Origin: Bacteroidota bacterium
Lineage (GTDB): Bacteria; Bacteroidota; Bacteroidia; Bacteroidales; FEN-979
Assembly: GCA_026391805.1 (NCBI GenBank)
Contig: JAPLDJ010000009.1
Span: 1 to 64,000 of the forward strand
DNA length: 64,000 nt
Reading direction: 5' to 3'
Made by a program: the position numbers and the translations under genes. The notes under the pieces are model-generated. The model saw nothing but the letters and a program-made list of their open reading frames with translations, ran no database searches and was not told the DNA's origin. Of this stretch, positions 14,086 through 18,836 are shown one piece after another. Within the stretch, counting starts at the first letter, position 1, and each line of letters starts with the position of its first letter.

Positions 14086-15636
14086 ATGCCAAACAACTTA
14101 ATCGCTATGAACAAAGTTAAACAGATTTTGCAATGGTACACCGAGGGTGTCCCTAAATTAAAGATCAGCCTGAAGGCAGGCGTATCGCGTAACTCCGTGA
14201 AGAGTTACATCCGGCAGTTTATCGCAATGGATAAATCTCTGGAAGAGATCCTGAGCATGAAAGATTCTGAACTGGAGCAGCTCTTTTTATACAAACCAAT
14301 CAAGGAACCGGATCCCCGCTACAAAGAGCTGATATCCTACTTTCCTGAGGTAGACAAGGCCTTAAAGAAGAAGGGAAATACCCTGCATAAGCTCTGGAAA
14401 GACTATCTAAAAACAAATCCGGATGGTTTTAAACACACCCGGTTTAATGAACATTACCGGCAATGGTCAAAGCGGACCAATGCCACGATGCATATAGACC
14501 ACAAGGCAGGTGATAAGATGTATGTGGACTATGCCGGGGAGAAGCTACAGATCATTGACCCGGACAGCGGTGAAGTAATCAAGGTTGAAGTCTTTGTAGC
14601 CATTCTCGGTGCAAGCCAACTGACCTATGTAGAAGCGACGATGACCCAACGCAAGGAGGATTTTATCGCTTCTTGTGAAAATGCCCTGTATTACTTCGCA
14701 GGAGCTCCCCAGGCCATTGTTCCGGACAACCTGAAGTCGGCTGTGATCAAGAGCGATAAATATGAGCCAACGCTCAATGAGTCATTCCGCGACTTTGTAG
14801 AGCATTACAGGATGGTTGCACTTCCTGCCGGACCTTATAAGCCCAGGCACAAAGCCCTGGTTGAGGGTGCCGTCAAAATCATCTACCAGGTGATCTATAC
14901 AATCATCAGGGAAAAAGAATTTACTTCCATTGAGGCCTTGAACAATGCAATATGGGAGTTGTTGGAAATCCACAACAACAACCCGCTTAGGGGGCGTCCC
15001 TACAGTCGCCGCCAGATGTTTGAAGAGATCGAACGGTCGACCCTTCAGCCTTTGTCTTTATATCGCTACGAACTAAAAAATAAGCGGATTGCGATGGTGT
15101 CAAAGAACAACTATGTCTGTCTGGGTGAAGACAAGCATTATTACAGTGTTCCCTACCACTATATCGGCAAAAAGGTCAGCATCCTTTACAGTCAGAGCAA
15201 TGTAGATATTTATTACCGCTATGAACATATTGCCACTCACAAACGCAACCGAAGGGCATTTTTGTTCACCACGGTTGATGATCACCTTGCAAGCAAACAC
15301 AAGTTCCAGTCAGACTGGACCCCGGAGAAGTTCCTCGAACGGGCAAAGGCAATCGGAGAACAAACCGAAAAGTACATCACAGAGATCCTGATCCGAAGAC
15401 AACATCCCGAGCAGGCATATAAAACCTGCCAGGGGATCCTGAACTATGTAGCCAAAGTCGGTAATGAACGACTTAACGCAGCTTGTCATCGGGCAAACTT
15501 CTATGGAGACTACAGCTATAAAACCATCCTGGCCATCCTGGATAAACATCTTGATAGTGTGCCGTTAGAACCGGATGATGATCGTGCATCTATGCCAGTG
15601 CATGGCAACATTCGCGGCAATACTTACTATGCATGA
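14086..15636 (+). CDS. istA: IS21-family transposase IstA
   Basis: A 516-residue DDE transposase. The N-terminus carries a helix-turn-helix (KISLKAGVSRNSVKSYIRQF). The catalytic triad is visible as Asp in MYVDYAGEKL, Asp in IVPDNLKSAV and Glu in ALVEGAVKIIY. The C-terminal part is a small beta-barrel-like domain with KNNYVCLGEDKHYYSVPY. It starts close behind the left terminal repeats and is followed by istB after 91 bases. Confidence 0.95.
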   Translation: MPNNLIAMNKVKQILQWYTEGVPKLKISLKAGVSRNSVKSYIRQFIAMDKSLEEILSMKDSELEQLFLYKPIKEPDPRYKELISYFPEVDKALKKKGNTLHKLWKDYLKTNPDGFKHTRFNEHYRQWSKRTNATMHIDHKAGDKMYVDYAGEKLQIIDPDSGEVIKVEVFVAILGASQLTYVEATMTQRKEDFIASCENALYYFAGAPQAIVPDNLKSAVIKSDKYEPTLNESFRDFVEHYRMVALPAGPYKPRHKALVEGAVKIIYQVIYTIIREKEFTSIEALNNAIWELLEIHNNNPLRGRPYSRRQMFEEIERSTLQPLSLYRYELKNKRIAMVSKNNYVCLGEDKHYYSVPYHYIGKKVSILYSQSNVDIYYRYEHIATHKRNRRAFLFTTVDDHLASKHKFQSDWTPEKFLERAKAIGEQTEKYITEILIRRQHPEQAYKTCQGILNYVAKVGNERLNAACHRANFYGDYSYKTILAILDKHLDSVPLEPDDDRASMPVHGNIRGNTYYA

Positions 15637-15727
15637 TGTTGAATGAACTCCTCACCTTATCCGGTCTTCACACCGACCGGATGTGGTGGGTTTTACTGAA
15701 CCCAATTAACCTAAAAACAGATAAATC

Positions 15728-16462
15728 ATGAACGAAGCAATCCTGCAAAAAATGAAACAAATGAAGTTGTACGGCATGGCCGGCGCCTTCAAAACCAGCC
15801 TGGAAGATGGCGGAAAAGTTCATCTTACAGCCGATGAGATGATCTCTTTTTTAATCGAATCGGAATGGGACGACCGGAATAACCGGCGCATTGAACGTCG
15901 CATTCGTACAGCCCGGTTCCGTTACAAAGCCAACATTGAACAAATCGACTTTAAGATCGATCGTAACCTGGACAAGAACCTGATGAACCGTTTTGCCGAA
16001 TGTTCTTACATTGATAGAAACGAAAACATCCTTATTACCGGAAGCACGGGCATTGGCAAGAGCTATATTGCCTCGGCGCTTGGCAACCAGGCCTGTATGC
16101 TTGGATACAAAGTCTTTTACGCCAGTACATCCAAACTCTTTGCAACATTGAAAATGGCACGGGCAGATGGTTCATACATCCGCGAAACTGCCAGGATCGA
16201 GAAGATGGACCTGCTCATACTCGACGATTTTGGTATGCAGCCCCTGGATAGTCATAACCGTTCCGCGCTCATTGAGATCATTGAAGACCGGCATGGTAAA
16301 CGGTCTACCATCATTGCAGCGCAACTCCCCGTCGGCCAGTGGCATGATGTTATTGGAGAGAAAACCATTGCTGATGCAGTGTTGGATCGCATTGTCCACA
16401 ATGCTCATCGCATAGAAATGATCGGCGAATCATTACGTAAAAAGCAACAATTATTGAACTAA
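15728..16462 (+). CDS. istB: IS21-family transposition helper ATPase IstB
   Basis: A 244-residue AAA+ ATPase of the DnaC-like IstB family. The Walker A motif is GSTGIGKSYIAS, Walker B is LLILDDFGMQPL, and RIVHNAHRIEM matches the arginine-finger region. IstB selects the target and activates IstA. Full family length, with no sign of decay. Confidence 0.96.
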   Translation: MNEAILQKMKQMKLYGMAGAFKTSLEDGGKVHLTADEMISFLIESEWDDRNNRRIERRIRTARFRYKANIEQIDFKIDRNLDKNLMNRFAECSYIDRNENILITGSTGIGKSYIASALGNQACMLGYKVFYASTSKLFATLKMARADGSYIRETARIEKMDLLILDDFGMQPLDSHNRSALIEIIEDRHGKRSTIIAAQLPVGQWHDVIGEKTIADAVLDRIVHNAHRIEMIGESLRKKQQLLN

Positions 16463-16624
16463 AACGAAAAGAATTACCGGCAATGAAAAAATGTATATTT
16501 GTATAACCGTCTAAAACCGATAAAATCAAAAGAAAATGAGGGGAAAATGGGGGTGGTCAATTTGCACCGGAAAGAAGGTGGTCACTTTGAAGCGGAATTA
16601 GGTGGTCAATATCAGCGGATTTTG

Positions 16625-16690
16625 CACTCTGGGAGGGTAAAACTTAAATACCGTGTAAAAGAGGAATTCTTCCTTATTGGTTGCTTAATC
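16625..16690. repeat. About 65-bp repeat shared with 18082-18164
   Basis: The stretch ending in TTCCTTATTGGTTGCTTAATC recurs with scattered changes near 18082-18164 (ATTCCTTACTGGTTGCTTAA). The copies flank the two toxin-antitoxin cassettes. If the attC reading is right, they are the leading edges of two cassettes. Confidence 0.6.
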
Positions 16691-16710
16691 TTTGCTTTTG
16701 GTTGAAACTT

Positions 16711-17440: not shown

Positions 17441-17737
17441 TTATATCTTCTTCTTTTTGGGATTCTGTCGGTTATCAAAAAATAAAATCAGGATAATGGT
17501 ATCACCCTTGATACGATAAAAAATATTAACCTACTTTACAATGGTAAAACCTCTTATGTTTTTCTCTTTATCTTCGACAGAACCAATTTCCGGGAATTCG
17601 GAAAGGATCTCAAGGAAGTCAAATACTCTGCCAATAAATTGTTTTGCAGATTTCTCGCCCCACTTATCAACCAGGTATGAAATAATTTGATCAAATTTAA
17701 AACTTGCTCTTTTTGACCAAACAATTTTTAAAGCCAT
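17441..17737 (-). pseudogene. ParE/RelE-superfamily toxin with an in-frame amber stop
   Basis: The gene begins MALKIVWSKRASFKFDQII, overlapping the antitoxin stop by 10 bases. A TAG codon at 17531-17533 ends it after 68 residues (FTIVK). Beyond the TAG the same frame continues for 29 residues with a perfect family ending, VNIFYRIKGDT and FFDNRQNPKKKKI, to TAA at 17441. One C-to-T change (CAG to TAG) explains it. The missing part holds the last strands and the conserved FYRI and DNRQNP motifs, so the product should be inactive unless the codon is suppressed. The antitoxin gene is intact. Confidence 0.85.
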
Positions 17738-17970
17738 TTGGAATATTTTTTCTTCATTTCCTCATGAGGAATGAGATTATCCGGATTTTCACACTCCTCG
17801 TCTGCTTTTAATAATTCCTCAATCTCATCTTTTGAGAGCATAGTCCATATTCTTCCAGCCTTAGATGCCCTTTTACGTAACATTAATTCATAAAATTCTT
17901 TAAGAAGATTATCATTATCAATGCTGTCAATAAGATGATGAAAGTTGTTTTTTAATTCAAGAGTTGTCAT
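17728..17970 (-). CDS. Antitoxin of the second pair
   Basis: An 80-residue charged helical protein beginning MTTLELKNNFHHLIDSID and ending EMKKKYSKWL, the form also seen in the first antitoxin. It carries RIWTMLSKDEIEELL in the middle. Its stop overlaps the toxin start (ATG inside AAATGGCTTTAA), which implies coupled translation. A full Bacteroidota promoter lies just upstream. Confidence 0.85.
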   Translation of the reverse strand: MTTLELKNNFHHLIDSIDNDNLLKEFYELMLRKRASKAGRIWTMLSKDEIEELLKADEECENPDNLIPHEEMKKKYSKWL

Positions 17971-18019: not shown

Positions 18020-18203
18020 AAAAGATAAAATTCAGAATACTACGGGAAAAGCAGGGATAGTTTGTTCGGACGATAAACACCATCAAAGCATTGTATCCAG
18101 GAAGTGTAAAACACAAATGCAAGAAATATGATGAATTATTCCTTACTGGTTGCTTAATCTTTCCTTAAGGATCAATGAAAAGAAAAGGAGTTTCATTTGA
18201 TTT

Positions 18204-18279
18204 CAAACGTTTGTTTTAGGAAATCCAAACGTTTGAATTGAAACTTTTAAACGTTTGAAATTATCATTTCAAACGTTTG
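18204..18279. promoter_or_regulatory. Array of four CAAACGTTTG palindromes at 22-bp steps
   Basis: Copies at 18204-18213, 18226-18235, 18248-18257 (first base T) and 18270-18279. Each is a perfect or near-perfect 10-base palindrome and the starts are exactly 22 bases apart, while the 12-base spacers differ in sequence. Conserved boxes on one face of the helix with free spacers suggest binding sites for a dimeric protein. The array lies between the 3' end of the HU-like gene and the promoter of the second toxin-antitoxin pair. Confidence 0.65.
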
Positions 18280-18332
18280 AAATCTGCAACGGATGCTTTT
18301 ATATTAAGTGATGGATAAGGAGATCATAAGGA

Positions 18333-18734
18333 TTATGTCCTTTTGTTTTTCTTCTTTGACCGGGAGAAATCGATGTTCCTCAGGTTCTCCTTTATCTCGT
18401 TCCCGGGAAGGAAATTCAGCTTCACCTCTTTGATGTCTTTTGCCGATACCTGATCGCCCTCATCCCGGCCATTGCCTTTCAGGAGCAGCCGGAAGGTTCC
18501 GAAGCCTTCCAGGTCAACAATATAGCCATCGGTTAAAAAGTAGGGCATCACATCCTTGAGGGATTCGATGACGGCAAGGACATCGGTGGAGCTCAGGGAG
18601 GAACGCTGGGCGATCTCCTTTGCCAGCTCGCGCTGGTTGACGGTGCGGTGATATTCCGGGGCCGGGTAGTGCTTGCCTTTCTCCGCCGGCTTCCGCGGAT
18701 CGATACGGTAAACTGAATGGAAGTTGAAGGACAT
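18333..18734 (-). CDS. HU-family DNA-binding protein
   Basis: About 133 residues of the Bacteroidota HU-like (HU-HIG type) family: MSFNFHSVYRIDPRKPAEKG, then QRELAKEIAQRSSLSSTDVLAVIESL as the dimerising helices, DLEGFGTFRLLLKG as the beta arm region, and a basic tail (FSRSKKKNKRT). I set the start at the ATG of 18734. The longer frame would add 28 residues read from a GGTGAGC/TTCACTG word repeat and is not credible. It would bind and bend DNA without strong sequence preference. Confidence 0.85.
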   Translation of the reverse strand: MSFNFHSVYRIDPRKPAEKGKHYPAPEYHRTVNQRELAKEIAQRSSLSSTDVLAVIESLKDVMPYFLTDGYIVDLEGFGTFRLLLKGNGRDEGDQVSAKDIKEVKLNFLPGNEIKENLRNIDFSRSKKKNKRT

Positions 18735-18766: not shown

Positions 18767-18836
18767 GGTGAGCGGTGAGCGGTGAGTGGTGAGTGGTGGC
18801 GTGCCGTTCACTGTTCACCGTTCACTGCTCACTACT
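18767..18836. repeat. GGTGAGC / TTCACTG word repeat
   Basis: Tandem GGTGAGC and GGTGAGT words are followed by inverted TTCACTG/TTCACCG words. The stop codon of the neighbouring PLP enzyme gene (18832-18834) is the CTA of this repeat read on the minus strand. Confidence 0.75.

Follow-up and report, generated by a model that had tools for sequence, protein, structure and literature searches.

The window (the whole stretch of 64,000 nucleotides analysed here, from a Bacteroidota genome of 3,889,036 bases, 3.89 Mb, in 28 contigs) carries four copies of the palindromic core AAACGTTTG, with no strand assigned, at positions 18204-18213, 18226-18235, 18248-18257 and 18270-18279. The unit starts (18204, 18226, 18248 and 18270) follow each other at a spacing of exactly 22 bp, as the initial annotation of this DNA had reported. 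Its description of four identical, evenly spaced CAAACGTTTG palindromes was confirmed in part: exact CAAACGTTTG was detected at three of the four units, but the third, at 18248, reads TAAACGTTTG, so the core common to all four is AAACGTTTG. The three exact CAAACGTTTG matches in the window compare with a chance expectation of 0.06 (at most 1 in 100 shuffles). The 22-bp unit has dyad symmetry (permutation p=0.0005), and unit 4 widens to a perfect 18-bp palindrome at 18266-18283. Tandem Repeats Finder detected the repeat at 18200-18283, with the 22-bp consensus ATTTCAAACGTTTGAAATGAAA in 3.8 copies at 74% matches. Rfam at gathering thresholds gave zero family matches across the window.

An HU-like gene on the minus strand (18333..18734, 133 aa from ATG) has its stop codon 54 bp away from the array, and we propose its product as the candidate binder. 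The protein matches PF18291 (E=2.6e-26, 92.5 bits, cut-off 26.2) and TIGR01201, HU_rel (83.8 bits, cut-off 68.6), and also PF00216; the Pfam domains found are HU only, and PDB HU chains match residues 34-121. On these profile scores the gene is a member of the HU-HIG (PF18291) or HU_rel group and not an ordinary HU. AlphaFold2 modelling of this protein with two relatives gave a poor result (mean pLDDT 46.4). Inverted 7-base tandem repeats (GGTGAGC, then GTTCACT) were observed between HU_rel and the next gene, at 18767-18833.

On the other side of the array, also on the minus strand, is a putative antitoxin gene (17728..17970), whose start has the array 234 bp upstream. The protein gave zero Pfam or NCBIfam matches, and its role is proposed from the overlap with the ParE-type toxin gene at 17531..17737 on the same strand (PF05016, E=4e-7). 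A 37-bp stretch is repeated at 89% identity at 16661-16697 and 18130-18166, flanking two ParE-type toxin-antitoxin pairs; by eye, both copies resemble the end of one decayed coding frame. A further pair of ORFs (14086-15636 and 15728-16462), probably of IS21 type, occupies 14086-16660 and ends in GGTGGTCA tandem repeats before the toxin-antitoxin region.

Genome-wide, exact site pairs at 22 bp were detected at three places only: in the window (contig C1), at C13:217585-217637 (three units) and at C21:389707-389782 (four units). Allowing two mismatches added two places, one of them adjoining a second HU_rel gene on C6. Many isolated copies of CAAACGTTTG, which the initial annotation had named as evidence against an array, were not seen, since seven of the nine genomic copies lie inside the three arrays. 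The three arrays can be aligned throughout, with the same order of units, matching spacers and homologous flanks of 72 bp on the preceding and 46 bp on the following side; the mean column identity is 81%. The annotation's view of the 12-bp spacers as unlike one another was thus only partly right: the window units share a 22-bp consensus, and the other two arrays repeat the spacers without a change of order. As judged from this alignment, the arrays on C1, C13 and C21 are copies of one element of about 190 bp (18132..18325, plus strand, in the window). A sequence model of the element found three full copies in the genome, together with weak matches to a fragment at 16664-16704 (E=0.14), to one place on C23 (E=0.09) and, weaker still, elsewhere. 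Against 45 relatives the model gave weak matches (best E 0.0014) and no convincing copy, and a AAACGTTT array of the window type was absent from all 99 relatives searched (0/99).

The direct neighbours of the three copies differ, being HU_rel and the ParE-type pair on C1, a penicillin-binding protein and a DUF3089 protein on C13, and NlpC/P60 and DUF5689 proteins on C21, so the ParE-type pair is no constant partner; the genes on the two sides are divergent at the C21 copy and in tandem at the C13 copy. The toxin-antitoxin promoter, which the initial annotation had named as the other flank of the array, is probably an incidental neighbour, judging from the direct neighbours on C13 and C21 among the ORFs scanned there. 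A gene with a nucleotidyltransferase domain (PF01909; L009:7104-7403) lies about 2 kb off the C13 array, and such genes can be part of toxin-antitoxin pairs.

We surveyed 98 loci picked by HU_rel alone, with 194 flanks of 350 bp. These were the two loci L198 and L199, 26 loci of the genomes G053 and G065 (all HU_rel matches listed there but one, which has stops), 30 that were the best per genome, and 40 further loci among the matches listed. The score threshold of 0.495 was the 99th percentile of shuffles in which two-base blocks were permuted, which are not strict dinucleotide shuffles. An array with a period of 20-24 bp within 350 bp was detected at 59 of the 98 loci, and the other 39 had no array at this threshold. 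Among the flanks, 78 of 194 scored above the 1% shuffle threshold: 11 at period 21, 39 at 22, 10 at 23 and 18 at all other periods together; 60 of the 78 significant flanks thus have a period of 21-23, with the peak at 22. A simpler autocorrelation gave the same 22-bp peak (13/97 upstream and 9/97 downstream flanks). More distant windows of the same loci reached period 21-23 in 8 of 544 cases and any period in 22 of 544. For ordinary HU, represented by the 26 loci L172-L197, which match TIGR01201 weakly, nine of 51 flanks of 350 bp passed at some period, three of them at 21-22.

Intergenic regions were also compared on their own. Those touching HU_rel carried a period of 21-23 in 54 of 140 cases versus 5 of 67 other regions of the same loci (Fisher p=1.1e-6; regions <115 bp excluded, those adjoining HU_rel being longer on average, 357 vs 279 bp) and 0 of 31 regions touching ordinary HU (p=2.4e-6), while other periods passed in 13/140, 4/67 and 7/31, respectively. 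Over the 98 loci the presence of a 22-bp array is predicted by the HU_rel gene. The initial annotation had taken the HU-like gene as a flank and possible binder; binding by HU_rel would be our reading of this linkage. Near-equal spacing (21-23 bp) recurs at other HU_rel loci, while the palindrome sequence changes from locus to locus.

Of the 43 genomes 35 contribute arrays, and of the 26 families 24, a tally that includes three loci found through their arrays (the window, L032 and L039). In the genomes G053 and G065, 11 of the 26 loci have an array, upstream of the gene. A later batch of 20 stretches, two of which hold trans arrays without HU_rel, gave an array at 13 of 18 HU_rel loci; leaving aside six loci from genomes already known for arrays (4/6 positive), the count is 9 of 12. 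Six annotated HU_rel records showed a period of 21-22 at L360 and L361, a period of 30 only at L359 and no significant flank at L362-L364. Loci with a lytic-enzyme neighbour had an array in 2 of 9 cases versus 70 of 107 without such a neighbour, and HU_rel genes in this setting may form a class that lacks arrays. HU_rel relatives were also found in phage (9 records) and plasmid (20 records) searches, and many Bacteroidota carry several HU-HIG genes, the highest number seen in a single genome being 16 matches.

Within the window's own family (43 genomes), the matches listed include three strong HU_rel genes in two genomes, and downstream of each, at a distance of 54 to 132 bp, is an array; the arrays of the C6 gene (AACGGTTGCCCAAC) and of the genome G003 (AACGGATGCTTRTCCG) are both unlike that of the window. 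Beyond these two arrays (L198:2494-2838 and L199:2421-2888) we noticed small proteins that resemble each other, contain the stretch IKKIWxDPVxSNLIAN and are without a Pfam match. The window array is one case of an arrangement seen more widely in Bacteroidota: an HU-like gene of this kind often adjoins its own 22-bp array of about four palindromes.

Of the five cases looked at, four had copies of the array at a distance from the gene. The C6 array recurs at C1:97631 and the G003 array at C2:13780 of its genome. That of Parabacteroides faecis recurs at two places (L028 and L117), and since this species was found through its arrays, the extra copies are no unbiased case. In Pustulibacterium no copy off the gene was detected, exact matches being the array itself and two-mismatch matches being no more frequent than in the control. 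The distant copies that were read are intergenic, upstream of a gene in some instances and not in others. Two of the at least seven HU_rel loci of the genome G129 lack the ACGTATACGT array, which is present at three other places of that genome. In G129, AACGTATACGTT palindromes at 22 bp form three arrays that lie far apart (L239, L340 and L341, at about 1500-1750), and the HU_rel gene to which they might belong was not among two of the at least seven genes.

A wide scan for AAACGTTT arrays returned at least 117 loci, a set in which coding-like 21/42-bp repeats were mixed with other kinds; ten had a uniform 22-bp spacing, and the two with HU_rel (Pustulibacterium marinum L032 and Parabacteroides faecis L039) were both among these ten. 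By Pfam, members of the PF18291 type are the window protein and those of L032, L039, L198 and L199. AACGNNT three times at 22 bp was rejected as a specific pattern: it was present in 18 of 394 genomes versus 24 for the reversed control, and so is not specific by itself. In the P. faecis arrays (L028:1080-1260, L039:1000-1200 and L117:20-200), ACCTAGGT and AAACGTTT alternate at 11-bp steps, and the arrays end in inverted TATTTTTGACC and GGTCAAAAATA. On two contigs of a Saprospiraceae genome (L031:1300-1680 and L071:6440-6800), AAACGTTT palindromes form long arrays with spacings of 22 and 42 bp, and TAATCAAACGTTTGATTA-like palindromes at 31-32 bp, or three turns, lie between ORFs in Bacillaceae (L048:6984-7055 and L103:1834-1938).

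Of 63 arrays, 45 have a unit with dyad symmetry at p<0.05 and 25 at p<0.01; examples of symmetric units are TGAGGTACCTCA (L299), AACATCCGGATGTT (L310), AGATGTACATCT (L294) and AGCTCGCGAGCT (L262). The symmetry was below significance for the C6 (p=0.23) and G003 (p=0.09) arrays. Four is the commonest number of units (38/63), in a count that starts from four by construction of the test. The array is upstream of HU_rel in 41 of the 63 cases and downstream in 22, and for 31 of the 41 upstream ones the gap to the HU_rel match is 30-150 bp, measured to the start of the profile match and not to a mapped start codon. The next gene beyond the array has a random orientation, which, together with the 22 downstream arrays, argues that a pure promoter-operator role is not general.

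Array similarity follows protein similarity. Across families the correlation of protein identity with array similarity was rho 0.12 (permutation p=0.006, 1599 pairs, array-found loci excluded), and among paralogues of the same genome it was rho 0.79 (p=0.001, 53 pairs); the mean normalised array similarity rises from 0.46 below 30% identity (1317 pairs) to 0.79 at 70% identity and above (20 pairs). Array presence tracks the protein tree (p=0.007, 116 proteins), as does the side of the array (p=0.003, 59). Part of this tracking is due to gene and array having descended together. Paralogues may also diverge, as in the genome G083, where four HU_rel loci have four different units. The NPxT motif, which belongs to the intercalating arm of ordinary HU, was detected in 1 of 98 HU_rel proteins versus 10 of 26 ordinary HU and is absent from the window protein; the looser [RK][NEQ]P gave 2/98 versus 19/26. 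That NPxT is mostly missing is consistent with another mode of binding.

We consider it reasonably probable, going by these sequence patterns, that the window array is the cognate site of the neighbouring HU_rel protein and that such arrays are bound by their own HU_rel, which would autoregulate its gene or mark a few chromosomal sites. HU_rel would then be an HU-fold dimer that has become sequence-specific, and each array-bearing gene would carry, upstream or downstream, about four palindromic sites 21-23 bp apart, each dimer recognising its own palindrome. As the sites are two helical turns apart, the dimers would sit on one face of the DNA, and four of them could bind cooperatively to form a short nucleoprotein filament. 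What we observe are the arrays with their period and symmetry, their linkage to HU_rel, the tracking of protein similarity by array similarity, and extra copies in some genomes; binding, cooperativity and regulation by HU_rel are what we infer. An array upstream of HU_rel could serve autoregulation, and the one to few distant intergenic arrays could be targets in trans, making up a small regulon or marking places on the chromosome for bridging. Taken as a whole, the interpretation in the initial annotation is partly supported: same-face sites for dimers in an operator-like or partition-type array fit these data, and the iteron reading is not supported, as no replication initiator gene was noticed among the neighbouring ORFs read.

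The arrays could instead be selfish, dispersed repeats of the REP/BIME kind, with HU_rel as a RAYT-like partner, spread by copying and having no regulatory role. The homology of the three source-genome arrays over their 72-bp and 46-bp flanks in unrelated intergenic contexts speaks for this, as does the finding of the window-type AAACGTTT array in 0 of 99 relatives; yet the copy number is very low (three), four units are commonest (38/63, partly by test construction), the HU_rel protein has only HU domains in Pfam, and the units differ among paralogues of one genome, and we regard this explanation as quite improbable. Still more doubtful to us is an operator of some other DNA-binding protein, of LacI or TetR type or the neighbouring antitoxin, controlling HU_rel and other genes. 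Many separate regulators would be needed, because HU_rel loci mostly have their own palindromes; array similarity tracks HU_rel similarity, the direct neighbours on C13 and C21 are not of ParE type, and 22 of 63 arrays are downstream. In favour of this explanation are the location of the window array 234 bp upstream of the antitoxin gene, the gap of 30-150 bp between array and HU_rel match at 31 of 41 upstream arrays, and the likeness of CAAACGTTTG to LacI-family operators; no gene for a LacI-family regulator was noticed among the neighbours read.

An array acting as a partition or chromosome-organising site, a parS-like cluster beside the gene of its binder with distant copies, and not as a transcription operator, is in our estimate unlikely. 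The layout of a gene, an adjacent cluster and a few distant copies is that of ParB-parS, the gene beyond the array has a random orientation, and the C21 and C13 copies lie between divergent and tandem genes, respectively. However, several HU_rel paralogues with different arrays occur per genome, unlike a single partition system, and no ParA-type ATPase was noticed beside the loci that were read.

Returning to arrays bound by their own HU_rel, the data suggest that HU_rel proteins read specific DNA sequences, beyond DNA packing. For a broader proposal we see even chances: HU-HIG may be a large, fast-diversifying sequence-specific class on the HU fold, with private arrays and a few matching ones elsewhere, in which many mutually distinct protein-array pairs, several of them within a single genome, would bridge or silence loci. 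We know of no HU-fold protein with such private arrays. If many HU-HIG genes adjoin their own array, the specificity of dozens of them could be read from sequence and would be testable at once. Sequence-specific regulators or chromosome markers would then have arisen from the HU fold, for which non-specific packing is the main known role, and matched protein-array pairs could serve as orthogonal DNA-binding parts.

The HU-HIG clade (PF18291) was reportedly defined by Burroughs, Aravind and colleagues in 2017, with a predicted role in recognising invasive DNA; we know of no description of cognate arrays for it. The parts available to us of the open literature searched, including PMC5771137, PMC3969353 and PMC11035120, give no account of arrays beside HU-HIG genes, the clade-defining paper being outside that scope, and in the available part of PMC11035120 an HU-HIG protein appears in a table only. 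The Porphyromonas gingivalis HU PG0121 prefers loops and bulges and complements E. coli HU, as far as the accessible part of the report goes (PMC3969353). It is alike in that an HU homologue from the Bacteroidota is connected with an inverted repeat, but the repeat described there is a single one of 77 bp, and a 22-bp array is absent from that part of its description.

Compared with HU/IHF (DNABII), the window protein has the HU domain in common, matching PF00216 and the PDB HU chains. Ordinary HU has little preference for sequence in its binding, and the sites of IHF are long and single, whereas HU_rel proteins are mostly without the NPxT arm motif and often lie beside palindromic arrays. ParB-parS systems, with a gene, an adjacent site cluster and few distant copies, resemble the HU_rel modules in that palindromic sites form a cluster next to the gene for the binder, a proposed one in the case of HU_rel; the HU_rel modules differ in the HU fold, the 22-bp phasing and the locus-specific palindromes, and no ATPase was noticed beside those that were read. 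The likeness to REP/RAYT is that palindromic repeats flank the gene and recur in the genome, whereas HU_rel arrays are low-copy with about four units and adjoin a gene without a transposase domain.
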